In this document: positions 7,267 through 63,315 of the stretch, one piece after another
How the letters are laid out: each line of letters begins with the position of its first letter
Position numbering within the stretch: position 1 is the first letter of the stretch
NCBI GenBank assembly: GCA_030698625.1
Contig: JAUYMS010000050.1
Location: 18,233-82,232 of the forward strand
Origin: Candidatus Omnitrophota bacterium
Lineage (GTDB): Bacteria; Omnitrophota; Omnitrophia; Omnitrophales; Aquincolibacteriaceae
Direction: 5' to 3'
DNA: 64,000 nt
Translations under genes and position numbers: made by a program
Notes under the pieces: model-generated
Databases searched by the model: none
What the model was told of the DNA's origin: nothing
Seen by the model: the letters and a program-made list of their open reading frames with translations, nothing else

Positions 7267-8178
7267 TTAGGCAGCGACGGCCAAACGGCGTACGGCTTGA
7301 ATCATGGTCGTAACGTAGGTAATGACTTCTGCGGTATAGCCCTGGCGCTTCATTTCGATTTCGAGCTGAATAATCGTGCGTTTATTGAGCAGTGAGCCGC
7401 GGAGCAAGTCGGCCGTGATCAGCAGGGCCGTAGCCAGCGGGAGAACCTGCCCCTTATCGACGCGCGCCACATTCGAATAACCCACGCGCTCCAGCTCATC
7501 GGATTCCCCGATCAATGCCGTTTCATCATTCTTATTCCGGCCTCCGGCGGCGCGGCGCACCTGCCTGACGAGTTCGAGCGTACTCGAGCTTGCCAGCACT
7601 TCAAGATGGACCTGATCGGCAAGTTTTGCGGTCGCTCCGAGATTCGTCAAAGTCTGCCTCAATGCCGCGCCGAACTTGCGCTCGTCCGCATCCGTAGGCA
7701 GGAAAAGACTAAAACGATCTTGAGGATTAGCCATCAACATCACTGCCAGCAGGATCAAGGTGGTGTCATCTTCGATCTCGGTGCCGGTCGGCGACTCTAA
7801 GAGATGAACGGCGCTATCGGTATGGCCTTCCAAAAGATCGGCAAACGGTCCGAGCGCCGCCTTCGCGGTATCCAGCACCAGGTTTGCTTTTTCACGATTT
7901 TCGAAAGCACTGCCGTTGATCGTTCGCAGCAACAAGGCCAGCGCTTCCAGTTCCGAAATATTGAGTTCACCGGCCAGATTTTGCACTGTCTGATAAAGCC
8001 CGGCACTTTCTTCGGCAATCGCAACAAGCTGTGCGCTCAAGGCGACGGCCAGCACGACATTTGTCGTCAGTTGCTGTGCGCTGCGGTTCGCCGCAGCCGT
8101 CGAAACTCCTCGCGTCGCGTCAATAGGCCGCAATTGCGCCACCGGATTATCCGACCGCGAATCACGCAATTCCGAGCG
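7267..8178 (-). other. Module A12: RSELR (8164-8178), C-terminal domain, residues 4655-4957
   Basis: Site codons are CGC TCG GAA TTG CGT. A mostly helical 300-residue tail contains EDDTTLILLAVMLMANPQDR and, near the end, VDKGQVLPLATALLITADLLRG. That last segment loosely resembles the tail motif of B and C (ALLGAVPLSQGTILV), but the similarity is too weak to call homology by eye. Confidence 0.45.
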
Positions 8179-11100
8179 GCCGGCATCGCCTTCCAAAGTA
8201 GTCGTATCGCCTGCATTCGTTGCGGTATCGGCTTTCGGGTCCACGACATTCGTGCCTTCGGGTTGCTGAACGGTCAGCGTAATACCCGGTTTCAGATCTT
8301 CAATCCGGTGGAGAAGACCATAGGTAACAGCATCGTAAGCGGTTGCCGGCCTTCGAGGCAGCTTATCGGCGATCGCCTCGATTCGTTGCCTGAGAGGCTC
8401 ATAAAGATCGGCTTTAAGTTGGGCCGACTCAGTCGCGTCGTATTCATTCACTCTACTGATGATCCTTTCGGCTACAGTCCGGCCGACCCGCGCTACCTCG
8501 GTAATCAAGGCCAGAAGTTCCGGTTTCTCGTCATCTTCGATGACCCGGTTCAAGCTCTGGCTGGCCGCATAAAGAATATCAATTCCCGTATCCAGCGTTT
8601 GTCCGTGGGCCTCAAGCGCATTGCTGCGATGTTCTTCCGCAGTCAGGGAAGCGTCCAAGACGGTGTCTCTAAGATGCGATTGCAATCCGGCTTGCGTGGC
8701 CCAGCCATTCAGCCTCGAAAGCGCCGCGGCCCGAGTCTCCTTGGACGGATTTGTAATGTCGCGAATCGCCTCGTCATAATCAAAAGCACTCCGCAATTCG
8801 GAGCGCGTGGCGTCTTCTATGCCGCGCGTATCATCGGGGCTCACCGAGCTGCGCCGGTTGCCCGATTGAACGGAGACTTTCCCTGTGCCGTCTACATGCG
8901 CATTTCCGCCAAGATCACGAAGCACCCGGGCAACTTCTCTCGAGTTCGGTCGCACATACTCTGTTCTGTTACCGACCCGAATGGCAATCCTACCGCCTCC
9001 GGCTTTCCAACTCTGCGCGCGTAACTCGGAGCGTTGAAAACCACTGCGGATCGTGTCGGCAAGTTCCTTAAATCCGCCGTAACGGATCTGCTGAAAAACC
9101 TGCCGAATCACGTGATCCTGCAAACTGATATCTGCTTTAATACGCGCGAAGGCGGCTCCTTGAGACGGATCCCCAAAGATGAGGCTATCGGTCACTTCGA
9201 CACCTGCGGGTCGTCCCGAAAAAAGGATCAAACCTGTTTCAAAACCGTATGCGATGAGGCCTCCGACCACGTTTCTATGAGCACCTGCGGAGGCTTGATC
9301 GATAATGGCTTGCTTCACTCCCAGCGCCGTCAAATCAGTAATAATTTCCTGGCTTTTACTTTTCTGTGCGGTGGCAATGAGGCTTTTGAGCTGACTAACT
9401 TCGCTGCGCTTATCGTTTTCGTTCGTGTAGACGAGAAGGTCCGGCTCATAGAGCGCGGCCGGATGATTCGGATCGGAGATAAAGGGATTCTTGAAAATTT
9501 TCTTCGTAAAAATGAAGACCCGGAAGTTCGCACCATCATAAGTGAGTAACAAATTGTAGGTGAATTTGCTGTTGGGCGTCAGCACAAGCGAGCCATCTTC
9601 GTTGGCTTGTGACAAAATCTTAATCACGCCTTCTGCTGTAGCTAGGGCGTCGGATCCTTCAACAACCAGGGTCGAGCGGAGCGGGAAACCTTGATTTTTC
9701 TTAAAGGCCTTATCATTGACTTGGGAGTACTTCACCCCTTTATCGTCAACGTGAAGTTCTTCAAGTGCATCAGGCTGCGCCAAGGCTTTTTCAGCATTCG
9801 ATTGCTTGAGATATCCCTGATAATGCAAATGCGGAATCGTGAAGCCGGAGAAAGCCACATTCAGAAAGTCACGAAAGCGAGTACGTTCCCCGGCCGGTAC
9901 GTTGGTCTTGAGATTCAGAAGACGGCTCTCAATGTCTTCTACCTGAGCCACTTGCAATGCAATATGGTCGTGAACCGCATTCATGCTGTTTGGCTGATGC
10001 GGATAAGGATTGGCCTGTTCACGCCACAGCACGCCGTCAGGGCCTATATACGGAAGAAAGCGTTGAAGCGGAAAGTAATCGTCAATATAGGGGCGCGAAA
10101 GGATTGTCTCGGGTAGGCTTCCGATCGTACGCGTTGCGAATGTCCCGCCGCGCTTCGCACGGCCGGGGTTGTACTGGAAACCAAACTGATACTTGCCGTA
10201 ATTGCGAACCACGGCGCCTTCCTTGATCCCGCGCACCACTTCTTCGCTGACCACTCCCGCGCCCAGCTGCTGCAGGAAAAGTAAGATTTTCGCGTCCTCG
10301 CGTGAAACATCGCCCCGTTCAAGTGCAGAAATAAGGAGTTCCACGGCCAGGTCATTCAAGTCGATGAAACGGTCGACGGCTACCTTCAGCTGCTTAATGA
10401 CTGCTTTCGCATCAACCCCATCAAAACCCGCGCTGGTCTTGAGGGCCTGCGAGAGGCGACCTTCAAACAATCCAAACGTTAGTGTGCTATCATTCAGAAT
10501 AATTTGATCATTAGTCCCCCGTCCGTTCTCATTCATGTAGATCTCACGCACTTTGCGCAGCACGTCAAAATAGGGCGCATTTTCATCGCCGAGATGCTTT
10601 GTAAAAAGGTCGCCTTTGCCGACTTGCGTAAGCCGGTTGATGACGGAAAAGAATTTGATCTGTTCGCGAATACTGCCCGCATTCGACCCGAAAATGGAGG
10701 GCACAGGCTCCACCCTGTTTTGGGTTACGACGCGAAGCTGATACTCGGTGTCCGGCAATGCAATAACCAACTTGGAGGTGTCGTCAACACTATCGTCAAG
10801 CTTCTCAAGATAGAGATCAAAACTGCGCTTGAAGCTCTGCGAGCCCCGCAGCTTTGCGACGGGCTTGTTCGGACCAATCACGTCATAAAGAGTATCCAAG
10901 CGTCTCGAGGACAAGCTGACACGCGGCGTAATCTCTGACGCAACTCCGGTTACCAAGAGTTCCTCATCCAAAGCCTTGAGCCCCAGATAGTCCACGAAAG
11001 CGCGTAGTGACGTATTCAAGAATTGCTCATGTCTTTCTGTGCGCAATTCGGAGCGGTCTAATCGAATATCGTAGGGCCTGCTCAAGAGATCGCTTGTCAC

Positions 11101-14100
11101 GTTCAGGACCCGGTAATTACTACGCGACGCGAGATGGCCTAATTTTGCCACAACGATCTTGACTGCCTGCTCATAAGTTAGTGGTTCGCCTGCAAAATCA
11201 AAAGGAGATTCAACGCTTGTAAATAGAACAGGATGCGGGCTATCCGCAGCCGGACCTACATCATCAACGTTAACCTCCAGCACTACCGTATCACCCTGGC
11301 GTAGCACCACGTACCAACCCTCAAGACGGGCCTGCGCATACGGCGATGTGGGGTCATAAACTTCAACGCTTCTGTCACTGCGAACCAGTGCCAATGGTAA
11401 GAGAGAACTTAATAAGGCGCTTGTCTCAGCGCGATGCGCTGCCACGAGCTCCTGAAACCGCAATCCGGCACTCAGAGCCCTGCTGACGGGTTTCTCAAGG
11501 CGTGCTAGGCGAGCCTCCTCGGCGGCTCGGATGATCCCGTCAATGTCCGTTGCATTAAGAACTTTATGGGTCTGTCCCACGCGAATGATAACGACATATC
11601 CGTCCTCAGACGGTTCAATAGAAATAATATCTTTAAGATCGAGTTCCACGGCACCGGCGGTCTCGGCTTCTAGCGGGATAGGGTCGCCATCGATTGAAAT
11701 TACAATGTTGCCGTCTACAATTCGGACGCTGCTGATAACCGCCCGAGGAATCTCACGGTTCCGGACACGAAAAACGTCAGCATCTTCGAGCAGACTAAAA
11801 TTCACACCGCGGCTGGACAGCGTGCTGTATCCGGCTCTCGCACCGAATGCCCTCACCGCGGCTTCGACTTCTTCAACCGCCTCGATCCACTGAATGGCCT
11901 CGCCACTAAAATCGGAACGCACGCCAAAGTCTAAGGACAGAAGATTACCGGATCCTCCGTCGATTCGGCCATCGCTGATGCGCAGCGTCGCAAGAAGCAT
12001 TTCGCCCTGCGGGAGGACTCCCTGCGTCAACCGTACCTCCAGCGCATCCATAACCGTTCTGCTCCTGTCATCCGGCTCAATCACACGCAAATGTCTCGAC
12101 GGCTCCAGCAATCTCGAGGGAATGAAAGACTCCAGCAATTCGTGAAGCGGTTCCACGCCCTGCGGAATTGAAAGAATCGAAGGGTGCGCCGCGCCCTTCA
12201 AGAAGTTAATGATGTCATCCACACTGCGTAATTCGGAGCGGGTTACGACCGTCAACTTGTGAAAACTGCCATCGAAATACTTAAAGTCAACTGTCTCAAT
12301 CGTGCTTTTTCCGTAAACATAAGTGGTTCGGTTCGGTCCTAAAACCTGTGATAGCTTCTCAAAGCTCTCGGCAAACTGAGCTGCGAAAGCTCCGTCCTCG
12401 ACAACCTTATCCCGGTTCACCCAAAGCTCAACTTCGCGCCGAGGCAAACCTGCGGCAACCAGTTCTGCCAAAAGATCGGGTTCGAACTGCAGGAACATCC
12501 ATTTTCTATCTGTTTCTAAGACCTGACGAGCACGCTCTGCCAATTCCCCATCCTGAATTTTAGACAGGTCCGGGTAGCCGATCTTGGCAATAAAAGAAAA
12601 CGATGTCTCGGTAATACTCTCCGCAGCATCCCCCGGCCCTTTACGGCCGACGGCGACGTAAATACCATCGTCAATTTCTGAGCCGATGGCGCTATCCAGT
12701 ACTCGAGTTTTTGCTGTATCCGGCGGAAATGTCTGATATTCCTCCATCGCGGCCAACGGCGTAATAATGAGTGTGTCGTCGCCAGTAATATCAGATGCTA
12801 TCTTCAGGCCCAATACATTAAGTGCGAAATGCGTCTCATCCCGCAATTCGGAGCGGAATTCCACCACAGATTTCCACGGAGCACTTTCATTGAGAGGGTG
12901 ATCGAGAACTGCGGCAAGCGCTTTGCTGGCCACCTCTGGGTCGAGCGGTTTATCCGCTTCTTTACGAAAAATATCGGACAGCTCTTCAACTGTGGGGGTA
13001 ACGCCGTTATCGATTTCACGATGTATCCAGCGGCTGAACAACTGAATGTCCTTCTCGTTCGCATCGGCCGGTGCGCCGAGTGCCGCCAAACGGTCGATGA
13101 CATCCGGCAGTTGAATAATCCAACCCCGCAACTTACCGCTCTTGGCGATATCGTCGGCAGCAAAAGTCGGTAAATAAGCGATATGCCCTGCTGCCGCGCC
13201 TGAGAAAAAGTTTCGAATGTCTGTCGAGGAGGTCCCTAAAAGATTTACGTGGTCAAGCATGATGAAGCGGCCCTCATTATAGGCGGCCAGCAGATCCTCG
13301 GACTCTAACGGCAGCGGAAGCATTTCAAAAAATTCGCGAATGTTAAAGGTCGGGACCACGCTGACGACTTCGATACCGGAGTCTACCAACAGTTGGGCAT
13401 TCTCGGCTTTCCACTGCTCCCATTTAATCACAACGTCGCGTCGCGGATCCGCCCCGTCATAAGTAGGGACATAATCCCCAGTCTTTTGGAGCTCTTTAAA
13501 ATTAGGTGCGAAAATATGCGCGTGGTCACCGCTGGCAAGATAAAGAATCTTCAACTTGCCTCGGCGCCCAGCGTTTAAGGGGATGAATTTCTGTGTCTTG
13601 GACTCCCCGTCCAATTCGGATTGTTCCTCAATCGTGGAATACTCAATCAGGCCGCCCGAGAGCTCAACGAACTTCCTAACGGTTTCCCGTCTTTCCGCGA
13701 ATACCTGCGGCGATCCCGTACCCGCCTTACGGTAGTCCACGCCATGCAGGAAGAAACCCATCACATCCAATTTGTTCTGCGCCATCATGCGAAATGCCGG
13801 TTCGTACTGGCCCACATGAAGCGGATAGGCCATGGTGGCAATGATTCCAACGCTCACATCTCCGGTGTTTTCATTGTTCTCGGTAAAAGGCGGTACAAAA
13901 TCGTATCCAAAATCGACTTTATCGTTTTCTCCTGCAGGAAGCTCATGCCACCGGAGCCGCTGCTTGCTCAGGTCATTGCTGATATCTCCGTTGAGAAAGT
14001 GAACGCCGATCTCCCACAAAGACTCCTGCAGCTTACGTTTGATCTCGCTCGCCATGGCCGCGTCTTCGGGAGAGCCGTCCTCTTTGATGTTGTCCAGGAC

Positions 14101-17100
14101 AAGATTTTGGTAAACCGTCTCGATATTGACACGCTGTTTAGAACTCACGTCAGCGTCTACAGATCTTGCGTAGTCATATTCAACGATCCTGTTCTGCTCA
14201 TGCGTGTCGGCGTTTAAAAGGTAGACAAAAGTGCGGGTCAGCATCTGATAAGGATTTCCCTTGGCATCAATCTCATTGACAAAGGCCCTTTCAAACACTA
14301 TTTTCCGTTCGCCATCTTCGACAAGAAGCGCGGCGCCAAAAGTCACGATATCATCGCTGTCGTAAACCACCACTGTCGGTATGGGACTTACTTGTTTCCC
14401 TAGAGCACTAAGATAGTCGGAGGCCACCGTCAGTTCGGGAAAGGACTCGACCGTCGGCGTCCCGTATTTCTTCAGCTGTTCGGCGATTTTCGTCTTTGTC
14501 TTCCGTTGATTGTAGGCGTTTCCGTTCAACACACCGTCGCGGTAGGCAACGCCCTTCGAGTCGAACCCGTATTCCATTTCGGCAAGGACGGCCTTGTGGT
14601 CACGCTGCAAGTCATTGCCTTCTTTATCCATGACCCATGGCGTCATTCCGTAACCCGAGAAGACGTGGCGCGTGTTGCCGCCTTTTTTGCCGTCGGTGAA
14701 GGTGCTTTCCAGTATAAAGTGCTCAAATGTGACGGTTCTCGCGGCTGCTGTCTTCGTAATCTTTAAGGCATCAAGTGTGTAGGAAAGCGCTTCACCCGGA
14801 ATGGTCGGCAAGCCCGATTCTTGAAGGACCTTCGTGCTTTCACGTTCGAAGTTAGCGGCTGCGCGATCATAGTTCGCCGCAATTAACGCATAACTCTTAG
14901 TATCGCTGCCTTGAAACTGCTCGAGGCCTTCGGGGAAAATGATTACGTTTTTGATATATCCGAGCTCGACACCGAGAGCGGCAAGTTTATCGAGGGCATC
15001 CCTGGCATTTTCCCTATCCAAACTTGTGATCAATTGCGGTTCGAAGGGCGCCTTGCCGCTTTCGAGAATAGCAACGATCACGTCGCGCGGGGTTGTGTTA
15101 GTGGTATATTTCTCCACAACACCTTTTAGATAAAAGGCGTCGGTCTGATACTTCCCATCGACCTTCACGCCGGTACTGGCCCAGTAAACCTGCTGACTCA
15201 GAAGGTCCAGCGTATTACCGGTTAGGCTGTAATCCGAAAAGTGCCGAGCGACAAATGAATTCCACTCGCCATCCTTCTCAAAGTGCTGCTTCCAAATGCC
15301 GCCGATATTGGCTTGGGCGAAAGCCAAAGCCGCCTTCGTCGTGTTGACAACGCGCTCGGGACCGTTAAGACGTAATTCACGGAATAATGCGATTGCCTGT
15401 TGATAATCATCATCTGTTAATCGTTGATCCGCCGTAAGAAGCTGAAGTCTTCGATAGTTTGCGATCTGATTCACCAGATGCGCATGTCGCTCACTCTGCG
15501 TGGATTGATCGAGTGAATCGCGCACCTTTTCAATATGGGCAATGATTGCATTAAAACTTTCATCCTCGAGCAAGGGAGCCACATTCCGGTCGTCACGACT
15601 GACGAAGTCACTCGAAACGCTCTGAGGAATTAGCCGAGCCAACTCATCGGCAGAAGTCTGTCCATTGGCTGTGATATACGATTCAACGAATCTCCTGACA
15701 CCGTTCTTGTGCGCCACCACCGTCGCTTCGTACTGCTCGCCCGTTGCCACCAAGGTATAGTTGACGTTGTACCCCAAGGCTTGGAGCTCTTCACCGGCCT
15801 TCAAGCCAATGCTCGTCGCCGGAATCTTAAGGAAAATATTGCGCTGAGTCTCTTTGCCGCCGAGCAAGGCAATTTCTCTGCGAGTTGCCGCGAGTCTCTT
15901 TTGACCGGCCGCTACAATCGCCGCAACCAAGGCAGCTTCATCCGGGCCCTCCGCTGTCACAATCTCGGTCGGAAGTTCCGTGCTGACAAAACCGTGACGG
16001 CCCTGTGACTCTTCATATATAGGTAGGAGTGCGAGTGCTATCTTCGCCACAAAACTGTTGATGAGCTTTTCATAGGCGAGCTTGACGACTTCGCCCCGCT
16101 TGTCAGCCCCACGAAGCGCCGCAGTCTTTCTCAAGATATCCTCAATCGCTTCGGTTAGCGGATTCTTACGGCCCGCAGCCTTGGCAAGCTTTTGAATCTC
16201 ATCGATATAGTCAAAATTGCTGTTATTGTTGGTCGTCACGGAGTGAATAATGCGGTGCTTGATCAGGAGCGGCAACAATCCGCCGCGGCGCATATCGATT
16301 TCCTTCGGCTGATCCAGCGAAATCACATGTTTGAGCTCGGCCAACTGCCGCGCCCATTCCTCGACCTCTTCGGTCACCTCATACCGCAACTCAGACCTGT
16401 CGACATCTAGGTTCTGACTGACAAGCTCTCGTCTAAGGGCTTTGCGAGCCGCAAGATCATCGGCATTTTTAACACTAAATCTGTGTAGACCGATCACAAA
16501 AGCGATGACACCAGTAACAGTTAAAAATGCGGAAATCCCGGCAATCCAATAAGGCACGGTAAGTACGGCGCCCACGGCTGCACTCGCAATGCGCACGGCT
16601 GCCAGAAAACCGCTCAGCGGACCGATCACCGTCGGTATGCCTGCAAAAACCAGGAGTCTTGTTAAAAATTCGGAACTCTTTTTTTCCTGGCGCTGCATAA
16701 GCTCTGTCAAATTCGTGTAAGTCTGCTCAGTCGCAAAGCCATCGAGAAAATGATTGAGCTGCTCGATTGCCTTCCTTACAAGAGCGGCCGTCTTTTCGGA
16801 ATCGAAACCAAGCTGTTTAAAACGCTCTGCCACCTTAACCCTGTCGTCGGCCAAACGGGCCACTTCCAGATAGTGGGCGCGCGTCACATCCGTTAATCGA
16901 CTCTTCGCCTCTGCCGGCACGTCACTGACCAGCGCATTACGCGTATAAAGATCGACAAGATCATTCAAAACATTGGCTTCACTGAAGTCGGGTGCAACCG
17001 CACTCCGCAATTCGGAGCGGACACCAAGGCTTGTAAGGGCGGCCTGGATGGCGGTGAAACGTTCTTGACTGTCGCGATAACCTTGCTCATCCGTTCGTCT

Positions 17101-20100
17101 TGAACGCACATACATCGATTGAATGCTGTATTCTTCGGACAACAACCCCTGAAGCTCCTCAATCGCCGCTTGGCGTTCGGAAGTCAATGCTTTGCCAAGT
17201 GCTCGAATGGCGGCGAGCTTACTCTCGTGCCTCGACTCTTCTACCGCATTTACTGCCGGCACGGCCTCGTCCGTTGTAAGCTGTGTATCTAATGGAAGTA
17301 ACCGGAATGCGGCTACAGCCAGCAGGCCGACAAAGAACGCTGCAAATAAGGCGGGGACAAGAATGGGGACATGGGGTTCCGGCCGCGGCTGTGCGAACTG
17401 CTCGGGATCCGGCAGTCTCCGTAAATCATGCAGAAGATCTAACAATTCAGGATCAAAGTGTTGTAAGCCATCGACCGCGGTTTCGAGTCCCTCCTGATCA
17501 GGCGCCTCACTATTCGTTGCGGTCAAAAACAGTGTCAAGGGACTCTGAGGAATATGCTCCCCGTCGTTTGAAAACACCTGGGTGTCTCTAAAAGTGAGCA
17601 TTGAATTAGGGTTGGCCTCCAAGAGACGCAGCACTTCGCTAGGCGACTTTATGAGCGCGAAATTAATGGGGCCGTTCGGGAAAAGCACCCCATTGTCACG
17701 GACGCTAAGCTCTACACCGGGAAACCGCCGTTCTGCCGAGCCGTCTATAAAACTTCGCACCACATTGATTGCAATCCGGCGAGCTTCACCCACCGTCACT
17801 TCCCGCAATTCGGAGCGGCTGCGAGGACCGTAGAGAACCTGTGCGGCCCTGAGCATAAAGCGGTCCAGGCCTGAAAGCGGGCCAGCGGCGTAATGCCAGT
17901 AAGCGATCTGTGCCAGCCGATCGGAGTCACTGACACCCTGGGGCCGCGGTGTCTGCGGTCCATAAAGCACCTTTGCGGCCGCGAGCATAAAGCTGTCCAA
18001 CTTGCTCCGCAATTCGGAGCGGGCGGGAAGGTGTCCAACGACCACTTGCTCGCCGGTGCGGATAGCCTTTTCTCTTTGAGTTAAAAGATCTGAAAGTTCC
18101 CGCTGTCTGTCTGCGAGCGCATCAACCGCCGCACGATTTCTCGCGGCTTGGGCTTCTAATTCTGCCGGCGAAGTAATTAAATCTTCCGGTCTCAGGGAGA
18201 TGCGGGGCTCATATACGGGCGCTTGGACAGGCTGGATCGGCTGATCGGGGTCATCGAAAAATTGTCCACGCTCCACTAGGGGCCGGTCGAGTTTCAAAAG
18301 GGAGCTCGGTGATGTTGGCGGTAATGCGGGCTGCACGGCAAACCATGTCGCAAATAGCCCAACAGCTAGAAAGAGTAGTCCTGAGCCCGCCGTTCCGGCC
18401 AAAGTAAGTCGGTCTTGGTTCTCTTCGGAAAGACGCAGTTCCGAGCGCAAGAGACCGATCGATCTTAGGATTCGCTCGCGGCGAAGAATATCGGGATGCC
18501 TGCCGATTTCAACGTTACGCGAGGCGAAATCAGCTGCAAGATTCTTATTGAGCGGAAATGCGGCGGTCTTCTTTAAGAGTTCGGCGAATTTCGGGTTCTG
18601 CTCCAGAAGTGAGCGCTCCAGGATAAGCGGAATATTGCTTATGTGCCGGATGTAATTGTCACGTGCCGTCACATAGGGCTGTGCATCATTGGTGATCAGT
18701 GCCTCGCGGGCCGCATTGCGAATCTCTGCCTGCAGACGGTTGGTTTCATTAACGATATACCCGACTTCGCCGTCACCCACGGGATTTTCAAACAGGCTCA
18801 CAGTGTCAAAGGTGTCCAGATCAATTTCTAAGGTTCTGCGGTCCCGAGCAGTCAATGTGTCTTTCACATAAGAATTTATCCGATTGAGAATCTGTTGGAA
18901 CACCGGACCGGCCACGTCATAGGTGGCCTTCTGTACGGATAGAATGGCAATGACCTCACCAACGGTGATATCTACGTTGGCGCCTCTGCCGCTTCCGTCA
19001 TCTTTAACCCAACGGTCCCGCATGGCGCGTCCGTCACCGGTTTCGTAAAGTTTGACGGGCTGATAATCCTCGGGGATGCGTTTACCCTCCTCATCCAATT
19101 CGAAGGTCCCGTCTTCCTTGAGTTTGTAGCGTAACGGCAGGTTAAGGCCAAGATTAGTGGCAATGATATGAACTAAGTCACCCTGGGCCGCGTCTTCACG
19201 CTCTTCCTGCGTCGCTTTCGTCAGGTCGCGATAATCTCTGAGCTTCGAAACAAATGTGGGAAAGTCGGGGCGTCGCAAAAGTTTCAACTTTATCAGGAGG
19301 CGGATGAACTGATATTCCGGCTCTCGCGTATTCAGAAAGTACTGCGGCGCGCTATCGCGCATGAGAGGTTCGGCGGTCTCGACGATGTCATAAATATCCA
19401 ACTGCGTCAGGATATTCACCTCGCCCGGTCGCCCGGGTCTTTCTTCGGGGAATTCAAACTTTTCCTCGGTAATGACGTGTTCCGCGATAGCCATGACGGC
19501 ATTGCGAAAAAAGAATTCACGGCCCAGACGGTCGCCGGTCAAATTCGGCTCACGCGTCGCTCTGGCGTCTCTCATTTCTTTAATGACGAGCGCACGGCTG
19601 ATGACGGCTTCCGCGCGGTCCTGATTGAAGGCCTGGATAAATCCTGAGGGGCTTTCCTGAGTCAGGCGATAATGTTCGGCCGTAGTTAAAACCTGGCCGG
19701 CTTCAGCTCGGTAGACAAGGCTGCTTCCCGTTAAACCGCGATTACCCGTACGGCGCTCGGTAAACAAATTCCGAATCGCTGTTCTGCGGTCAACCGTACG
19801 GCGGGCATCACCGATCAGCACCCGCAATTCCCGGCCCAATTGTTCTAAATCTTGGCCGGCCGCCAATCCGGGAGTTAAAGCCCCGACAAAAGTAATAGCA
19901 GCTGCCACCTTGGCAGCCACCGCCAACTTTGCAGCATCGCCGGCTCTGCGAAAAAGTTCACGGCGCGAAATTTTTTCTTCCGTCCGGAGCTCGGAGCGAT
20001 CAGGGGGCTCATAGGCACTCGTACGGACAATCGTTTCCACTCCGGCAGGAACAAAGGTAATCACAATCGGCTGAACGGATCGGCGGTCAGCCGCAGCTTG

Positions 20101-22140: not shown

Positions 22141-22142
22141 AA

Positions 22143-22154
22143 TCTCTTAAGAGA
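22143..22154 (-). promoter_or_regulatory. Palindrome directly before the giant A start codon
   Basis: TCTCTTAAGAGA is self-complementary and ends two bases before the ATG at 22138-22140. It overlaps the only Shine-Dalgarno-like bases (AAGAG), so folding or protein binding could affect initiation. Short palindromes arise easily by chance. Confidence 0.3.
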
Positions 22155-22203
22155 GAGCCCTTTATGACTTAGTGAGATATTTTTAAAAGAAATTTGTTAT
22201 GAA

Positions 22204-22232
22204 AAGATACCTGGTGAATTTGGCTTTGTCAA
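22204..22232 (-). promoter_or_regulatory. Promoter of giant A
   Basis: On the minus strand a perfect -35 TTGACA (22227-22232) and a -10 TATCTT (22204-22209) are separated by exactly 17 nt. The predicted transcript start is about 55-60 nt before the ATG. Giant B has the same spacing and the same -35. Confidence 0.65.
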
Positions 22233-22355
22233 ACCCAGACAGGCTGTGATTTATCATTATCAATCAATTCATAGCAATGATTCTATCGGATATATAACAT
22301 CCCGCATTACCTGGCGGACCCGGCCAACAGGAGGGAAAAGCCGCCTACAAAAAGA

Positions 22356-50200: not shown

Positions 50201-53200
50201 GTGCCGTGATGGCCTGCAATCTGCCGGCGGGATCTTTCCAACCATCGATGAGAAGATTCGTGGTCGTTCCAATGACCGCTCCAACTTGAATGGAACCGGT
50301 TCTCTCGTCATCAAAGTTAAAACCATTTGCCCACATAGGATGTTGTGTCATTGCCGAAAAGAGATTTTGGACCAGTTTCTGGATGTCCGGGCGAAGATTA
50401 GCTTCTTCCCCCTGAGGCACGGACGAGAGAATCAAAACAAGATTCCAGTAATCCATCGGGATTTCCAAACGCTTGCGAACCCCGTTCGAACCGTTAATAA
50501 CGCCATAATCACGGCGGCCGTTGCGATTCAGTTCCCGGCCCCAGAGCATTTCAAGCGCCTCCTGAATCTGCTCGCGCTCCTCATACCGCTGCTGCAGTTG
50601 ATCGACACTGGCTAGGCCGTTTTCCGCCATCTCAACCACGCCTCCGGCATAATGCCGGCCAAAATCAAGCCCGAAGGCAGTCTCTACGGCAAGCTTTCTC
50701 GTCCAGTGCCGCAGGACAGAATAAGGATCTCTGCCGCGACTGTCATGGGTGCGCTCGGCCTGGGCTTGGAGGCGAATGGCATCCCGCTGCAGCTTATTGG
50801 CAAAATCAATACCTAGAATGTAGTCCGCCGGAATCTCCGGGGCATCTATTGTCGTACCGGTCCCGGCTTTTTCCCTGACGAGACTCGCGTACTTGCCCGC
50901 CAGCGTATCGAGCATAATCTGACGGATCCTCGGATCATCTGCCGGCTTGTAATACGCATCAATAAAACCGGCATCGCGGATTTCTTTCAGGCGCATGAGT
51001 ACTCGGTAATGGAGAGCGTCCGGATAGCGCCCGAGAACCGTCTTCATGTCCGTCGCCCCTTCCGGCCAGAAAGCCCGCTCGGCCAGTATCTGAAAGAAAA
51101 TGGCCTTTGACACGTTTTCGGCGTCGACGATATTCAAGCGGTACGTGCCCGCAGGATCACCCTGCATGCGCATCTGAAGATTCGGATAAGGCGTCGTATA
51201 GCGGGGCAAAGTATAGGGTTTACGGCCTTGGTCTCGGTGAACCCAGAGTTCGGGGAAATTACCGCCGAGCACTCCGCGCTGTTCTATTTCTGCCGGAATC
51301 AGCGTGTCATACCAGTATTTCGCGTTCGCGGTTTCATAAAAGATGCGCTTAAATTGTGTTGCGATCGCGTTCTCAAACTTATAAGCACCCATATCTTTAA
51401 AGTAGGGCGACATAATCTTGTCAGGGCCCGGAACATACATAAAGTTCTTGTTGTTCAGAGACCGTCTGAGCACCTCGTAAAAATTCTGTGGCTGATACCA
51501 GTGATGCCCGGATCTCGGAAAGAGTTCCGGATGCCCATGATGTTCCCAGACGCGGTGCTGAAACTCAATAAGCGCCGTCATCATCATAAAACCCATATAA
51601 CTCTTATACTTCACCTTCGGAACCTTGCTCCACCCATCGTCCAAGACGACCCACTCGTCATAGTCGATAACATTCAAGAAGCCTAGACCGCGCCAAAGAT
51701 CCGGCAGATCCTCGTCTTCGGTAATGTAACCGTCATTGACCATTTTGCTGAGCGCCTCCTGGGTTATCTTCTGAGCATATTGAAGGGAGCCGATAAAGTC
51801 ACGCTGTTGCCAGGAACCCCGCGTGTAATCCACGCCGTAGATCATCATCCACGGCGCGAGCATCTTTGCCGCAAAATCATCGGCATCAAAAGTCTCTTCC
51901 CCTTCGAGCGAAAAACCCTCGCCTTCTCCGAAGATCACTTTCGCATAATCGGCAAGATACTCCGTTCCTGCAAATGGCTTCTCGTGCTTGATCTGGTAAT
52001 CGGGGTCCTTGGACTGACTTTCTTTGAAAATTTGTATCATCTTGACGAATTCAGCCGGTGTGATCGTGATGCCGTGCCGCTCCGCAATTTCAATCACGCG
52101 CGTCTCGTCTGCTGTAAGCGCGCGGACCGGGCCCTGCTCTTCTGCCGCTTGGGGAGCCTGGACTGCGGCCTGAACCGCGGCCCGCTGCGCACCCGCAGGG
52201 ACCTGCATCTCGTCCACTTTTAATTCCAAAGCCGGCGGAGTCGACGGCAGCTTGTCAGCCGGTTGACCTCCCAAGCGACTGGCGAGAATACCCAAAAAGA
52301 GAAAGATTCCCAAGAACAGTATTAGCCAGAATTGGCGGCGGGTTTTGACGGATTTTTTTGCCGCAGGCGGCTGCTCTTCTGCCGCCTTCGCGTCCACGGC
52401 GGACTCCTTCTTCAGAGCGGCTTGCACCTCCTCGGGAGCAAGTGACGTAAGACGATAACGATAGGCCTCGCCGATCTTGTTGATATGCCGTACCACGTTT
52501 TCGCGAAAACGGCCGTAGTGTTCGTTTTCTTGATTGAGTGTGACGACACCGAAATTGACGGCGTGCTTGAGCGCGGCATCGAGGCCGAACTCTTTCAAGA
52601 CTTCGTATTCATCCGCATAAAGAATTTTATCCAGAACGCCGCCAAGCCGCAGATTGATAGTCGCTGCCATCTCCGCGATAGCCAGCGTATCGTTTGACAC
52701 CGCGACCGCTTCACGCACCTTCGTCACGCTGTCATTGTCTTCGCTCAGGGCTCTGCCTAGTTCCAAAAGCTTAGTCGCCCGGTTTTGTTCCCACTGCGAT
52801 AATGCTTCCCGAATATTCGCTTCCTCACCCTGAATGATGGTCGGCGTAAAATGCAATACCCAATCCACGAGACGTTCGGCGGCCTCGTTCAGTTCACCCA
52901 CAAATTCATCGAGGCTATTGGCTAAGGCTGCCTTGGCATCATTGATCCGCGCCTCTAGCGACGCGGCTTGCGCTTCATCGGTGGGCTCGGTGACGTCTTC
53001 GAGTTTATACCTCTGAGCGGCAGCCATGAGATCGGTGACCCGGTCTGCGAACTCGGCAGCGCCCGGCACTTTGGGTTCGCCTGCGTCAAATAAGCCGAGT
53101 CTAACATCATTGAAGCGGTCCGTAATTCTTCCGACTTCGGTTTTTATGGTTTGCGATACCGCACCTTCCCGCGTGGCCGCTTGAACCACGATGGGTAATT

Positions 53201-56200
53201 CGGTGAGCGTCCCGATTTCGCCAAAGAACGGCTGCATGATGCCTTTGATCTGATCTTGCAGCGTGGATTCCATGCGCTTACCGCCGGGCGCCTCTGCATC
53301 TGCCGCTTCGCGGTAAAAGGTAGCCGTAAAGTCTGCCGGCGTTACGGTATCAACACTCGTATACAGTACCCCGAGAGCATCCGTGATGCGGCTCTGCAAA
53401 CCTTCAACATAACGATTCTGAACGGCGTCCAGTGCCGTCCCCGCCGACTGCGCCTCCGGAATTAGGGCGCCAAAGTTACTATGAAGCTCTTGTTCATGTG
53501 CATTTAGCCTGGAAGCGCGCTGTAAGTCTTCGGGCTTCAGAGCACTCGATTCGGTGCCGGTTTGACGAATGCCTTCAATGAGACTTGTCTGATACTGCCG
53601 CACCGCTTCGCCGACTGCTGTCCTGACGACTTCAACCGCCGCATCGAGTGATGTGCTGTGTTCGTCCGCGTTGTATCCAGCCCTCTCTCTGATTTCTGCG
53701 GCTTGAGTCCTAACCGTCTCAAGCACCTGAGCAAGTACGCTCAACTGTTCTGCAACATCCGCTTCGAGGTTTGCGATAACAGCATCGTTAATGAGTGCGG
53801 CAATGGCCGACACCTGCGTCGTAAAAGGTGCTGCCAATTCACTAATGGCGGTAGCGACCGCGGCCGCTGATTGTTTGGCTGCCTCGATCTGTTCTTCCAG
53901 GGTATCCGCTTCAACCTTTGTCGCCGGCCGTTCCACGGCCGTTACTCCATACTTCGCGGCGTCAGCCATAAGGCCGTCAACACGCTGTTCCAGAAGTCCG
54001 CGTGCTGTCTCAAGCTCTGCGGCCAGAGCATCGGCATCTTGCTTCGTCGCCGGACGCTCCGGGGTCATCCCGTATTTGTCCGCGTCAGCCATAAGGCCGT
54101 CAACGCGGTCTTTGAGAGCCTGTTTGGCTTTCTCCACGGCTTCGCCAAGCGCGTTATAGGCTTCAAAATCAGACGGCTCTTCGGCTTTCACACCGTAACT
54201 CCAAGCTGCTTCCATAAGCATTGAGACGTTGTAAGCAAACTGTTGACCGGCACGCGTCACATTCGCTTCAAGCTCGTCGGCACCCTTCTTATCCTCAGGC
54301 CTTGCAGGCGTAACCCCGTAACGCGCGGATTCTGCCATGAGTTGATCGACACGCTCCTCCAGAAGTCCCCGTGCCGTCTCAAGCTCTGTTTCTAAACTAT
54401 CCGCGGCTTCGGGTGTCGTCGGCAGTTCCGGTACCAATCCATACTTCGCGGCTTCGTCCATCAAACCGGATACGCGATTACCGAGTTCACGATTGAGCTG
54501 ATCAATTTGATCGGTCAGCTGATTTGCCTGAGCAAGCGTTGTCGGTCTCTCCGGCGTAATCTTATAACGGCCGGCTTCCTCCATTAAACTGTCAATACGT
54601 GTTTCCAATTCCTGCCGTGCGGCCATAATCTGCTGCTCCAACGCTTTCTCACCTGCGACTGTCGTTGGGTTCTCAGTTCGTAATTCAAATTCAGCCGCTT
54701 GGGATTGGAGGGTTTCGACCCGCTCGGTAAAGTCTTGCTTTGCTGCGGCATAGGCCTGCTCGACTTCGTTAGCCTTTTCTTTGTGACCGGCACGAACGGC
54801 ATCACGCGCTTGACCGTATATAGGAAGGGCCCGGATTTGCAGGATCTCCGCTAAGAACTGCTCTTGAAGGCCGCGGGTTGCAGCAGTTTGGTTTTTTGCT
54901 GAAAAATCATCGGGTTCCGCCATAGCGTCACGAAGAGCGTTGTAACTTTGGATCATACGCCCCTGAACACCCGCCACAAATCTCTCCTGCAGCGACTGAA
55001 ACACCGCATCGGCCTCGTCCTGCTCTGCGAGCATCTCACCGAGTAAATCTTCAGCGTCAGTCCGTAACTCCGAACGATCCTTGGGTAAAAATTGACTGAA
55101 CTCTCGCTGTAGTTGCTTTTCTCTTTTCACCACCCGCGCGGCTCTTAGCAGATCCGCCGGTCTCAGATCGACGTCTGGCGTATCACCCTGTCTGATTCCT
55201 GCAATCAGCGCCTGCTGATAAGCTTTGACTGCGGCGTTAATAGCCGTCTTAACACGGCCCACGGCCTCTGTAAGAGATGTTCCATGAGCCGCTTCGCTAT
55301 ACCCGTCCGTCTCACGAACCTCAGCCGCCCTCCTCCCTGTTATATCCCACAACTGCGTGAGAGACGTGAGTCGTTCGCTGACATCAGCTTCAATGTTCTC
55401 ACCCGCGGCTCGTTCGATAGCACTGCGGATGGCCTCAATCTCCGCAAGGGCTCCCTTGTCAAAACCTGCGATGATCGTATGAATAGCCGCAGAGGCTTCG
55501 TCGGCCGGTTCCTCGACCAGTTCTGCCGATTCGGGCTCTTCTCCCAAGCTAGACAAAATCGCGGCAGCCCTTGCATTATAGAGTGCTGAAATTCTGGCCC
55601 CTTCATCGGCCACTTCATCTTCAATTGCTTCCAGTTTTGCCGGAAAGATGGGGTCATCCCGACGCTGATCAAACGCTGCTTGTAATGACTCTAAAAGGGG
55701 CTTCATCTCGGCTGCGAGTTCGAAATAACCTTCTTGAGCGGTCATGGCAGTAATTCGCGGTTCGAACGCGACCAACGCCGCTTTTGCGCGGTCTCCCTGC
55801 TCCCTAATCGCGGCGACAAGTTCCGTATTGTGAACGATTTCTGTTTCCAAAACGTCCGCAGCCGCCTTTGTGGACGGCCTTTCGGGACTCATGCCATACT
55901 CGCTTGCATCAGTCATCAGTCCGTTAACGCGCTGCTCCAGAAGTGCACGTGCATTTTCAATCGCTTGAGCGAGTTCATCGGCGCCCTGCTTTGTCGTCGG
56001 ACGCCCGAGCGTCATCCCATAGCGCCCCGCATCAGCCATCAGGCCGTCAACTCGCTGTTCTAGAAGTCCGCGTTCATCTTCAATCGCTGAAGCGAGTTCA
56101 TCGGCAGCTTGTTTCGTCGTCGGGCGCTCAGCCGTCATTCCATAGTGCCCTGCATCAATCATCAACTGCTCGACACGCGACTCATGGGCGGCTTTCGCCG

Positions 56201-59200
56201 ACTGAATCTGGCCGGCAAGTGTATCCGCATCCGACTTCGTCTCCGGGTTGGAAGTCACGGAAACACCGTACCTAGCAGCATCTGCCTTCAGACCGTCAAC
56301 GCGTGTTGCATGGGCCGCTTTTGCCGTTTCGATCCGCTCGGCCAATGCATCCGCTGCGTCCATCGTTTGAGGACGCGTGTCATCGAGTTCGTATTTAATG
56401 GCTTCGGCTACCAGGCCGTTCACGATTTCGTCAAAAGCTACCTGCGCCCTTTCGATCTCTCGAACCAAGGCATCCGCCGCAGCCTTCGTCTCAGGACGCG
56501 TATCACCAAGTCCGTATTTGATAGCTTCGGCCATGAGCAGGCTTGCGCGCGCATCAAAGGCATCCCGCGCGACGCTGACTCTCTCTGCCAAGCTGTCTGC
56601 ATCGGTCTTACTTCCCGGCTCAAGTTCTTCCATCCCGTACTGCTCCACATAGCCCATAAGAACTCTGACTCGGGCTTGAAACTGCTCGCGAGCTTGAGCA
56701 ATGACGTCACCCAGAGCATCAGAATCAACCTTCGTCTTGGGCCGTGTTATTCCATCAATGCCGAACTGTTCGACCTCGCGCATTTGCGCATCGACGATTG
56801 CCTTTAAGGCTTCATCCAGCACATCGCGAATGCCTTCAACGAGAGTGCCGGCGCCGTTGATCATGTCCGTCATCAAATCTGTTCGATCCGCCGTATCGAC
56901 GGCTTTTGCCGCGTCATCGATCAACGACTTGTGTTGAAGAGCCTGTTCATACGACGCTTCCGTGAACGACTCTGCCTGCCTGGAGAGTGCCTCCAATTGA
57001 TCATAGTACCTTCTGATCTCGGCTTCCTTTTCGAGAACCGTACGGCGCTTGTCAAAAGCAGTGCGAATGGCCGCGGTTCCCTCTTGATGGGCGACGTTTA
57101 CGCTTCGTGCGGCATTTCCATATATAGGAAGGGCACGTATGAATGCAATCTGTGAGAGTTGTTCATCCTTAATCTGAGCGCTGTGCTCATCGACGTCAAA
57201 ACCCTCGGTGGTCATAAGATCATGAACTTCGGTCGCAAGGGTATCGTAGGCACCCTTGAGCCGGTTACGCAATCCACTCACATAGGCCTCTTGGAGTTGA
57301 CGGAATTTCTTTTCGACTTCTGTCTGCGCGGCAATCATCTGCGCCAGCCTGCCTCTCGGTTCGTCGGCCCTTAACTCTGAGCGTGCGGGAAAATACGCTT
57401 TCAACGCCGCTAACTTGCCCATAATCCGCATACCAAGCTTCAACTCCGTTTCAGTAATCACGACACCGTCACCAACCGCAGGAATGGCATCCGTAAGCGC
57501 CCGCTGATAACTTTGCAGGGCGGCCAAGATCGCGTCTAAGACACGTTCGACCGCCAAACCCAAGTCACTTTCATGCACTTCCGGGCGAAAATCGGTCAAA
57601 CCTCGGACCTTCGCGGCTTCTACGTTTGTCTCATTCCTAAGTCCTGCCAGTCTGTCGAGCTGCACTTTGACATCAGCTTCCACATTGGTAGCTACCGCGG
57701 CACTGACAGCCTTACTAATAGCGGAGACTTCTGCCAGCGTCTCTTTGCCAAAATTCTGGACCGCAGTGGCGGCATCCTGCGCTTCGCCTGTAGTAGCGGG
57801 CGCCGGTGTTTCCGGCTCTTCGCCCACCAACTTTTTCACAGCGGCGACTTTTTCTTCAGCCGCCTTGCCGGCCTGCTCAAGCCCGGCTGCGATCAAGTCA
57901 CCCACTGCCTTAATAGAGGGAACAAACCCTTCGACAAGAGTTTCATAAGTTGCCTGAATCTCGGCGATTGAGCTGTCTTCAAGCTCATTGTCCTGCTTAT
58001 CCTTTGAGAGTTGCTCAATGTGGGCGTCGATGCCGCTCAGTTTCGTCTGAAAACGTGAGCGAAAACCTCTGAAGCGTTCCTGGTAATCTTTGACCAGATT
58101 GCCGGTAATCTCCTGGCGATCCGCCTTCGCTTGAATTTCGTCCTTTAGAGCCTTGATCTCCTTCTCTGAGGTTTGTAACTGGTAGCGAATCTGAATCACT
58201 TCGCCGTTAGTTAGAATCTCCTGATACCGCACCAACGCCTGATTAATCTTGCTTTCAGTTTCGTCGAGGGCTTGCCAAATGGGATGATCGGCGGCAAGAG
58301 CACGCAATTCAGACCGGGCATTACCAGTCTGAGTTCCACTACCGGCGAGTTTGCCTCGGATGCCTCTGAGTCTCGCCAAGAGATTCTGAGCTCTGGCCGC
58401 TTCGTCAGCGGTGACATCTTCGCCGCTACGCGCGCGCGCAGCTATAGGCCCGAGTTCGTCTCCGGCAGCGTTAATTGTCGCAACTGCGGCATTCGCATCG
58501 TGAAGGGTTTCACGCGCGGCGGCAAGCGCCCCATCGGCCGCGCCGACGGCTGTCGCAATCAAACTCGGGAGGGTTCCGCCGAGAAAAGCAGCAATGCGAT
58601 GAGCCACTTTGGCCACACCGCGTGTAAAAGTTGATGATGCCACGGCCTTCGCTGTCTCAATATTTGCCAGTTGGGGTTCCTTCTGCGCCTGAAGAGCTAC
58701 GCGTAGAACTTTCTTATCTGAGCCCTTGCCTGCAATAAGATCCACAATCTTGACATCGCCTGTCTGCTTGACGGGTTTCACCTGCACCGTGGCAAAAGCG
58801 GGTATCTCATAGTCGGCATGTTCGCGGAAGATCTTGCGCAAGCCCAGACTATCAAGGCCTTCATGCAAAACATTGAGGACCGGCGGATATGCCGTAAAAG
58901 TCGTGCCGGCCTTCGTCACGCTAATGGTAAAGCGCTCTACGCCCTGATCCGTGGCAGCTTTCAGCCGATATTCACGAACGAGCCCGCGATCACCATCGGT
59001 ATACTCGGTCACCCTTACACGAATCGCTACCCCTTTGAGAGATCGAAACCGCTCATAACCTGCATAGGGAGTTCCGTCGCGGCCCGTCTTAAACTTGTCC
59101 CTTCGCAACACATGCGACAGAAACTTCTCGTCGCTATTATCTACTGCACCCGCTTTTGTGGATAAAAGGTGTCTTTCCCCGCGATTGAAGATAAACCGAT

Positions 59201-61598: not shown

Positions 61599-61908
61599 CT
61601 ACTTCAATTGCTAATCAGTGCCGCTGATCAAAATACATTATTAACATCTTTAAAAAGTAACAGTAAAGGGTAGCATTCATTTTTGAGAGTGTCAAATCTT
61701 TATGAATAATTTATAAATGTCTAATGTATTTCATTGCCATAAGTTGCGCCTGTTCTAGAGATACAAGCAGCTTCATATTTACCCGCATATGGTTAATAGA
61801 AAGCAATTTATAACACTTATGCTAATCTTTGATCTTTATGAAGTTTAAGCGCCCCAGAGGAGACTAAGACTACGGGAGTAGTTGTTTTTGAATAATTGCG
61901 GCTGGTTG
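61599..61908. other. Intergenic region between giants C and B (310 bp)
   Basis: No coding potential is seen. It holds the giant B promoter (61667-61695) and a leader of about 60 nt. AT-rich sequence fills 61700-61840. No convincing terminator for giant C was found; only a 5-bp stem lies near 61870. Confidence 0.65.
61667..61695 (-). promoter_or_regulatory. Promoter of giant B
   Basis: A perfect -35 TTGACA (61690-61695), a 17-nt spacer, and -10 TACCCT (61667-61672) preceded by TGC (extended -10). The -10 hexamer itself matches the consensus weakly. The geometry equals that of the giant A promoter. Confidence 0.55.
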
Positions 61909-63315
61909 TTATGCGGCTTTTTGTGCTTCGAGGACAGACAATAGCATGTCTTGGAGGATTTCAACGGAGTCCACAACGATTGCATAGGAACTCACCTGCT
62001 CATCCGCCCCGAGCACCAAAATGGTGCCTTGAGATAAGGCAACAGCACCAAGAAGAGAGGCTTGTAGCATTTCTATATCGAGATGGCGCAGGGGCCCGGC
62101 ACGGATCTGGATGATATTGGCCACGCGCTTTTCGAGGCCACGAACGTGCCTTCCCAAATCGTCGACTTGAATTTCGACACGTCCCCTCAATTCTGATCTG
62201 AGATCCGAGGCTACCGACTTAAGTTCGGGCGGAACAATAATGCGCAGAATACTCTTGGGAGCTTCTCTCTCGGCCCGATCCGCAATCCGGTTCAAGAATC
62301 TGATATCCGTCACGTCCTCATCATAAGGAACCACGATGTATCCCTGCTCACCGTTCTGCCACAAATCTCCCGGCAGTAGATTCAGCGAATCCAGGACATC
62401 AGCGTGTCGCGTTAGATTACTCAGTGCGTTTAAAAAATACGCGCTAAAAGCCGCGTCAGAACGAATGCCCTGCAATAAAACCTCAAATCGAAAAGTCTCC
62501 GGCGAATCCAAAGCCTCAATAACCCGCGACGGCAAAGAAGGCGCTATCGCAAACGGCTCTTTGGAAACTGCGCCCCATGCGTATGGCAACTGCGACGCAA
62601 TCCAACTTTTTACGGCAGGAGAGAAATAAAACAGACTTTCGGCCGCAGGCACCCCTAATTCATAGCCTAGCTCGTAATCGTACCCGTCAGGCAAAATGGC
62701 AACACCTCCCGGTTTCGGCACGCCCAATTCACGACGCGCAAGCTGAAAGATGTGGTACTGCAGAGCACGCTGCTCCTGATCTGTCCACGCCCCCAACTCC
62801 CCAAAAGTCTGCCGAAAAGTTTTGAATTGCTCCCTGGCCTCTTCCAACAACTTTTTGTCACGTTGCCTATCGGTGGGCCGCTCTTCGGCTTCTGAAACCT
62901 CTTTCGGCTCTTCGCTAATCGACACCGCCTGCGGCGCACGGCTTGCCAACTCCAGCTCTTCGGCAAGAACCCTTAGCGCCTGATCGACGGCACGCGGAAT
63001 AAAAATTGGGCTGCGGTCTCTGTCAATGACCGAAGAGAAGAGCAGAATATGAGTATCCAGCGGCACGGGAAAGGCATTACGCCTGAGTCGCAGTTGCGTT
63101 CGAACCTCGCTATAAAGCCTATTCTCCCGCCCATCGGGCGCCTGCGGCAAGCTTGCAATAGCCAGAAGCTTATTAGGCTCACCGAGGACGGGTAGAAACA
63201 GATAGTCAACGCGCTCACTCCCGACACCGTGACTGAAAGACACGCCCGAAAACCGATTGATGAGGCGATCAAGCGGCTGGCGATCAATTTCGGGCAGCTT
63301 CCTTAACTCACTTCG
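61909..63315 (-). other. Module C1: RSELR (63301-63315), B1-like domain, linker and tail
   Basis: Site codons are CGA AGT GAG TTA AGG, the only site using an AGN serine codon. A B1-like domain is followed by an acidic linker, a helical stretch and the B12-like tail. A second RSELR (62185-62199, codons AGA TCA GAA TTG AGG) lies inside the tail, where B has SLRAQVEGR. It does not sit between domains and may be chance. Confidence 0.6.

Follow-up and report, generated by a model that had tools for sequence, protein, structure and literature searches.

Why does one pentapeptide, RSELR, recur dozens of times in the giant proteins of a single bacterium? The question is raised by a stretch of 64,000 nucleotides from a Candidatus Omnitrophota bacterium of the order Omnitrophales (GCA_030698625.1, contig JAUYMS010000050.1, positions 18,233 to 82,232), which we analysed as a whole and call the window. 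A first-pass annotation, made from the letters alone, had noticed 26 copies of RSELR in three giant proteins, A, B and C, and had read them as module separators and perhaps protease sites. Each of the 26 was confirmed, all of them on the minus strand: A and B have 12 apiece, and C has 2 (Table 1). The N-terminal part of C is missing, as contig C44 ends at 82232, which is position 64000 of the window. Our results show that, in this genome, the modules of giant proteins are set apart from each other by RSELR. Judging by the residues around the sites, it is probable that RSELR is also a proteolytic processing site, at which the chain would be cut after the last Arg, releasing the modules as separate proteins.

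Three proteins proved to be too small a frame, since RSELR is found genome-wide and in part of one order. In the 3.52-Mb genome that holds the window (G000), a degenerate DNA pattern for RSELR has 157 + 177 = 334 matches against 15 + 11 = 26 for the reversed pattern, the reading frame having been checked for part of them only. In addition to the window we read 353 kb of this genome (about 293 kb selected because of giants, the other 60 kb serving as a control). In these sequences 13 open reading frames (ORFs) of at least 1,500 residues, A and B among them (91,831 residues), carry 134 copies of RSELR, where composition predicts 0.25; the excess over chance noted in the window is thus borne out. 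Incomplete copies are almost absent from the 13 giants: 134 of 136 RSEL and 134 of 136 SELR tetrapeptides lie within an exact RSELR. A, B and C contain no near-variant of the form R[S/A/T]E[L/V/A/I/M]R. Among 135 smaller ORFs (44,106 residues) only two carry the motif, namely C and a 962-residue ORF adjoining a contig end. As the first-pass annotation held, RSELR occurs in no other ORF of at least 150 residues in the window, although those listed on the minus strand number six and not seven.

The constraint acts on RSELR as a peptide, as had been proposed from its codons: in the window the first Arg uses all six codons, Ser uses TCA, TCC, TCG, TCT and AGT, and Leu uses five. In the DNA of the 15 proteins that carry the motif, all 138 sense matches are in frame (the two remaining sense frames have none), 3 further matches are antisense, and 113 distinct 15-mers encode the 138 sites. 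Hence, a DNA-level element, be it a repeat, a recombination site or a regulatory word, is ruled out. Phosphorylation of the Ser is unlikely, because Ala replaces it in two related genomes: G034 has 11 RAELR beside 29 RSELR, and G009 has 6 RAEVR and 4 RAELR.

The position of the sites relative to folded domains supports their role as separators. Pfam scans covered eight of the 15 proteins (for B residues 1-10000 only) and gave 25 Pfam stretches, after overlapping families had been merged and a 21-residue DUF2795 match dropped; weak matches (E up to 0.0086) were kept. None of the 25 contains a site, compared to a mean of 6.66 under random placement, which yielded zero in 0.01% of 20,000 trials (P = 0.0001). 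Distinct Pfam enzymes sit in separate modules. Some domains start close behind the nearest RSELR (UDP-sugar dehydrogenase after 5, glucosamine-6-phosphate isomerase after 17 and HAD after 20 residues), and most lie further off. The match to UDP-sugar dehydrogenase begins at the fifth residue past RSELR, and its GWGGSCFPKD motif is intact. The sites avoid domains; that each site is a domain edge does not follow.

The sequence also turns disorder-promoting in composition at the sites, to judge by a disorder index that in ten-residue bins reaches 0.144 before and 0.175 after the site, against a background of 0.085, and that shows no peak at 23 other RxExR words. Three pairs of tandem duplicates align from residues 1-8 past RSELR (modules 4 and 5 of giant C9, and modules 4 and 5 as well as 7 and 8 of B), and modules 8 and 9 of giant C7_3373 end together at RSELR. 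One enolase-like module (L052, residues 4497-5013 of giant C13a) has its TIM-barrel domain in front of its N-terminal domain and is apparently circularly permuted.

If RSELR were cut, the residues that follow it should look like the start of a protein. The first-pass statement that flanking residues vary holds only within strong preferences, for P or A at -2, S, T or A at +1, and D or E at +2 to +5. The statistics assume that residues are independent of each other, and the sites include a few duplicates. At the 138 sites of G000, position +1 is S, T or A 80 times (28.7 expected, P = 2e-21) and F, L, W, Y, R or K 8 times (42.2 expected, P = 8e-13); Pro is found 0 times (5.7 expected) and so is Arg. 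D or E fills position +2 at 55 sites (20.5 expected), and Pro fills -2 at 20 (5.7 expected) and -1 never. At 199 sites from 12 relatives, position +1 again favours S, T and A (74 against 39.4), with fewer F, L, W, Y, R and K (31 against 62.6) and a single Pro against 8.8. Unlike G000, the relatives allow Pro at -1 (13 against 8.8), do not clearly avoid R or K at +1 (18 against 25), and have fewer D or E at -1 (11 against 27).

The avoidance of F, L, W, Y, R and K at +1 fits the bacterial N-end rule, and the composition of this position fits what one would expect if residue +1 were a new N-terminus. The same six residues are also rarer at neighbouring positions, and a preference of the protease or the composition of the linkers may contribute. 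A second indication comes from [ST]RRxF motifs. There are three of these in the giants, and two begin 2 and 7 residues past RSELR (0.14 expected within 30). Both are followed by a hydrophobic stretch, a combination that we take to be a signal of the twin-arginine type.

We judge a processing site to be the most likely function of RSELR because S, T or A prevails at +1, where Pro and Arg never occur, and because twin-arginine motifs lie directly past sites. The bond cleaved by an Arg-specific endopeptidase would lie between the last Arg of RSELR and an S, T or A that is followed by D or E, and each module would come free as its own protein. The fourth residue of the motif would follow the specificity of each species' protease. 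Many of the cuts would fall on the cytoplasmic side, because cytosolic enzymes that look intact (UDP-sugar dehydrogenase, transaldolase) occur among the modules and because two modules start with twin-arginine signals, which would be functional only at a free N-terminus. Taken to its full extent, this would be a chromosome-encoded polyproteome in part of the order: a single Arg-specific protease, devoted to this task, would cut dozens of giant precursors after a lineage-specific pentapeptide (RSELR in G000, RSEVR or RSEMR in relatives), yielding about 300 mature proteins per genome, metabolic enzymes and proteins exported by twin-arginine translocation among them, while protease and sites would drift together. 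We put forward this full picture tentatively and would give it slightly less than even chances.

How far does the motif extend beyond this genome? In relatives, where we counted R-S-E-x-R in the giants of the stretches read, the fourth residue is L, V, M, I or A, with a preference that is specific to the species. G009 has 49 copies against 0.47 expected (V 22, L 8, M 8, I 6, A 5), G034 has 33 against 0.60 (29 L), G072 has 22 against 0.17 (M 10, V 8), G020 has 15 against 0.33 (M 8), G050 has 23 against 0.43 (L 17) and G030 has 10 against 0.32 (V 7). G042 has 0 against 0.42, and G001, G015, G028 and G005 have 1 to 3. At the DNA level, the pattern for RSE[L/M/I/V/F]R is at least 3-fold over its reversed control in 23 of 47 genomes of the order (for example 360/45 in G000, 311/49 in G030 and 170/12 in G072). 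The ratio is at most 1.6 in the f3, f4 and f8 genomes and in G058, G078, G086 and G090; such ratios call for caution, as the two stretches of G058 contain several RSExR or RAExR words. Outside the order, 4 of 238 sampled genomes reach 3-fold with at least 20 matches (G189, G059, G241 and G190), none with more than 71, and in G189, a distant relative, the pattern is mildly raised (71 against 21 in the control). No alternative separator was found in 30,695 residues of giants from the motif-free G042. The words IAEASG, LRELGE and LGEGVR recur in these giants (L173-L176, L100-L101) and look like internal repeats, not separators.

One module of A, 669 residues long, has the motif at both of its borders in three species, which bears out the reading as a module separator. 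It was found in 3 of the 47 genomes of the order, G000 and two members of the same family, and its borders are RSELR and RSELR in G000, RSEVR and RSEVR in G009, and RSEVR and RSEAR in G032. The alignment between G000 and G009 begins and stops at the motif. The module lies past the ninth site in G000 and directly past the N-terminal module in G009. It also has one database homologue that is a free-standing protein, P0001 (759 residues, 43% identity, 97% coverage, on an 800-kb contig), whose Met1 coincides with the first residues of the module; this position comes from the protein record, and a miscalled start is possible. The module carries SGFTIPHLHYQG, which resembles a nucleotidyl transferase motif of the histidine-triad/GalT type. 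No solved structural relative of it was found. A homologue search with the HAD module gave a single partial match of 199 residues.

Individual sites can be followed across species where orthologous ORFs align. The ORFs of relatives give 33 alignments that cross 15 of the 138 sites, and R[S/A]ExR stands in the same columns in 12 of them; 9 of the 15 sites have at least one relative with the motif in place. Some sites are kept with a changed fourth residue, RSELR against RSEVR (for example A 3697, A 4371, C13a 7546 and C7_3373 2153). Alignments end near sites 9 times where 4.6 are expected (P = 0.03); comparison with relatives accounts for 8 of these ends, where 3.0 are expected (P = 0.009), and alignments within the genome show no excess (1 against 1.6). 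Inside alignments there are 6 sites against 10.6 expected (P = 0.07).

Several results weigh against processing at RSELR. The search of related genomes proposed in the first pass gave a divided answer: the motif is enriched in part of the order, and yet 21 of the 33 alignments across a site lack it, in the aligned columns or within 15 columns, so that the missing conservation which the first pass named among its refuting outcomes is partly observed. At 6 of the 15 sites, including B 633, B 6257 and C 228, no aligned relative has the motif. The orthologue of B in G028 aligns straight through B 633, the first site, at about 51% identity and has RKKI there; it follows that some giants are without sites and that sites have come and gone. 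The excess of alignment ends near sites is only moderately above chance. Tandem duplicates in two other giants (modules 3 and 4 of C2_23151, modules 4 and 5 of C7_51367) do not begin at a boundary. Internal hydrophobic segments are not enriched past sites (8 of 62 within 60 residues, 5.5 expected), which leaves a signal or transmembrane segment unsupported as a general module start, with only the two twin-arginine cases remaining. Even in uncut chains, disordered acidic linkers could account for some of the flank preferences. A giant that opens with a Sec-type signal is an awkward place for cytosolic enzymes further along the chain. An AlphaFold2 model of the 669-residue module with its flanks was too poor for use (predicted local distance difference test score 48.9).

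The search for a protease also counts against a cut. The first-pass annotation proposed to look for a co-occurring one, and none of the families searched (C11 in G000 only, C14, C25 and S1, that is, trypsin) tracks the motif. Peptidase_C11 was not found in G000, while 4 of 14 control genomes were positive. C14 occurs in 3 of 47 genomes of the order, among them G024, which has no motif enrichment. Trypsin occurs in 26 of 47 without following the motif and was not found in the motif-rich G050, G044 and G103. The absence of C25 from all 47 genomes is uninformative, because the control genomes were silent as well.

The giants share more than their separator. Eleven giants of G000 start with a signal-peptide-like segment followed by a homologous domain, together the N-module. 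The first RSELR lies at residues 489-897 from the first codon of the ORF, and at 597-716 in 9 of the 11; the mean spacing between sites is 659 residues (standard deviation 681). The N-module, a signal peptide with a predicted TIKI-superfamily fold, is matched in all 47 genomes of the order, with 1-44 matches each, including genomes without separator enrichment. At the other end, 12 of the 15 proteins finish in Ala-Ala and 2 in Ser-Ala, the remaining one running into a contig end, whereas a single one of 61 control ORFs does so. The same endings are found in motif-poor relatives, on six N-module ORFs that are complete (L174, L175, L176/L100-L101, L178, L183 and L185). This tail is possibly a signal for C-terminal sorting or for a tail-specific protease. 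Apart from it, the C-terminal modules have little in common: in an alignment of 12, identity to the first is 14-22%. We take the signal, the TIKI-like start and the Ala tail to be an older frame of giant proteins, to which the separator was added later, because both start and tail occur in relatives without it.

One could also argue that such a frame is what a single exported chain might have. RSE(L/V/M)R would then be a docking or tethering motif that is bound by a partner (a scaffold, a chaperone or an export factor) and never cleaved, the giant remaining a single string of beads. A position in linkers and a strict sequence suit binding as well as cutting, no protease tracked the motif, and orthologous giants can be entirely without sites. 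Yet the lack of Pro at -1 and +1, the sharp preference for S, T or A at +1 and the scarcity of F, L, W, Y, R and K resemble a scissile bond with a fresh N-terminus behind it, and twin-arginine motifs and enzyme starts directly past sites would be useless inside an uncut chain. We therefore regard docking without cleavage as unlikely.

If RSELR is indeed cut, the cutter might be carried by the giants themselves: their N-module, as a predicted TIKI-superfamily hydrolase, could act on its own or on neighbouring chains. With the TIKI superfamily the N-module has in common the His-Glu spacing and the second His and, in its predicted fold, the fold rows. H104, E132 and H504 are kept in 11 of 11 copies in G000, and a Glu at +28 in 56 of 56 other copies, the search pattern itself having demanded both His. 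It differs by a large helical insertion between the halves of the core, by an Asp in place of the first Glu in most copies and by the lack of any match at the sequence level. In the 2His/2Glu motif the first Glu precedes the first His by two residues; of the 56 copies, 46 have Asp at this position, 5 have Thr and 3 have Asn, and 2 keep the Glu. Parts of PMC6254334 deal with the importance of the catalytic residues, name Tiki, ChaN, Ere, HopBA1 and RRSP as members, and count PMT within the superfamily although it is without the motif. Foldseek gave no match to the N-module at E 0.001 or better, a profile search of solved structures gave helical chance matches only, and an NCBIfam scan of three N-modules gave no match. 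Its assignment to the superfamily is a prediction, and self-processing by it appears to us quite improbable. Some N-module copies have one or two internal stop codons, in relatives (L063 and L077 among them) and once in G000 (C46); these may be decayed copies or assembly errors.

Finally, that RSELR is a functionless fossil junction left by fused genes or shuffled modules is very hard to believe: modules do move as units between giants and species, at least one has a homologue that is its own protein and relatives often lack the sites, but five residues that stay exact across 113 different 15-mers require that selection on the peptide has continued, the DNA encoding them is too short and variable for a recombination site, and at orthologous sites the fourth residue changes while the rest is kept.

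The coordinates of the features are collected in Table 1. Beside A, at window positions 1-7104 on the minus strand, Pfam identifies a tRNA IPP transferase, an arginyl-tRNA synthetase, an O6-methylguanine-DNA methyltransferase, an alanine dehydrogenase, an NAD synthase with an amidase domain and a GAF protein, a set of ordinary genes.

Table 1. Giant proteins, modules, domains and RSELR sites in the window (positions counted from its first letter).
Feature	Position	Strand	Remarks
Protein A	7270..22146	-	giant ORF, 4,959 residues, first Met at 22140, 12 RSELR, C-terminus ...RRLAVAA
Protein B	22455..61598	-	giant ORF, 13,048 residues, 12 RSELR, C-terminus ...ALELAQSA
Protein C	61912..63999	-	C-terminal 696 residues of an ORF cut by the contig end
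A, N-terminal module	19984..22146	-	homologous to B N-terminal module
B, N-terminal module	59685..61598	-	signal-peptide-like segment, predicted TIKI-superfamily domain and linker up to first RSELR
B, predicted TIKI-superfamily domain of N-terminal module			residues H104, E132, R476, H504
C, end of N-terminal module	63301..63999	-	homologous to B residues 406-582; last residues are RSELR
A, 669-residue module	9034..11040	-	RSELR at both borders; homologues in G009, G032 and database protein P0001 (759 residues)
A, transaldolase/F6P-aldolase domain (PF00923)	15523..16179	-	within a module; Pfam, E 4.8e-14
B, PP2C_2 phosphatase domain (PF13672)	47865..48515	-	within a module; Pfam, E 7.4e-08
A, C-terminal module	7270..8163	-	after last RSELR; last residues Ala-Ala
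B, C-terminal module	22455..23186	-	after last RSELR; last residues Ser-Ala
C, C-terminal module	61912..62184	-	after last RSELR; last residues Ala-Ala
RSELR site, A	8164..8178	-	
RSELR site, A	8791..8805	-	
RSELR site, A	9019..9033	-	
RSELR site, A	11041..11055	-	
RSELR site, A	12226..12240	-	
RSELR site, A	12841..12855	-	
RSELR site, A	16384..16398	-	
RSELR site, A	17005..17019	-	
RSELR site, A	17803..17817	-	
RSELR site, A	18007..18021	-	
RSELR site, A	18433..18447	-	
RSELR site, A	19984..19998	-	closes N-terminal module
RSELR site, B	23187..23201	-	
RSELR site, B	24588..24602	-	
RSELR site, B	30540..30554	-	
RSELR site, B	37329..37343	-	
RSELR site, B	42813..42827	-	
RSELR site, B	47136..47150	-	
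RSELR site, B	49857..49871	-	
RSELR site, B	55062..55076	-	
RSELR site, B	57369..57383	-	
RSELR site, B	58302..58316	-	
RSELR site, B	59232..59246	-	
RSELR site, B	59685..59699	-	closes N-terminal module
RSELR site, C	62185..62199	-	
RSELR site, C	63301..63315	-	closes N-terminal module

What would a separator of this kind be good for? Parts of PMC11573180 suggest that some giant bacterial proteins could be cleaved and that the hard part is to predict the proteases and the motifs they recognise, and according to parts of PMC12057145 the integrity of giant bacterial proteins remains unclear. A strict, species-specific separator makes this puzzle directly testable, since it says exactly where about 300 N-termini should lie in a single genome. 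It also breaks giants that resist annotation into units, each of which can be annotated, expressed and folded separately, and the diverged sites of relatives form a natural series for finding the partner that cuts or binds.

The letters RSELR are shared with the PL7 alginate lyases, which have a conserved R(S/T/E)EL(R) motif. This motif can be rejected as an explanation: none of the Pfam-scanned giants gave a PL7 match, and only 2 of the 138 sites are followed by the companion Q[IV]H within 150 residues. Giant proteins as such have been met in Omnitrophota before, and there is reportedly an earlier giant-protein paper, on Velamenicoccus. The giant ORFs of the phylum described in parts of PMC10066038 exceed 20 kb, with few annotated domains, transmembrane segments and roles in adhesion or predation, and a preprint on them by West-Roberts is cited in PMC12057145. 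The RSELR giants are similar in phylum, ORF size, scarcity of annotated domains and transmembrane segments, and they probably belong to the same class. They differ in what those parts of PMC10066038 leave unnamed, a separator, a module unit or any processing; the word "polyprotein" appears in that paper 0 times.

Release of modules from a bacterial protein is known from the MARTX toxins, whose effector modules are set free by a built-in cysteine protease domain (CPD). They resemble the giants studied here in being very long secreted bacterial proteins with proteolytic release of modules, the last being a feature of MARTX. They differ in that the Pfam scans of eight of the 15 giants contain no CPD, that the modules here hold housekeeping-type enzymes and that one exact peptide marks the boundaries. 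In parts of PMC3153235, MARTX are described as multi-effector toxins with an autoprocessing cysteine protease domain. In the open-access literature searched, with preprints and most subscription papers outside the scope of the search, we found no description of such a separator, and we could not find a described kind of bacterial giants that is punctuated genome-wide by one species-specific peptide.

The other known case is that of viral polyproteins, for example in potyviruses and picornaviruses, where one long ORF encodes many modules, a short junction site is repeated and a protease releases the products. The giants share with them the long multi-module ORF, the short conserved junction site and the presumed release by a protease. 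In contrast to viral polyproteins they are cellular, they number in the tens per genome with about 300 sites, and no protease module was found in them that tracks the site. If cleavage holds true, a bacterial lineage would use across its genome the polyprotein strategy that is otherwise associated with viruses.

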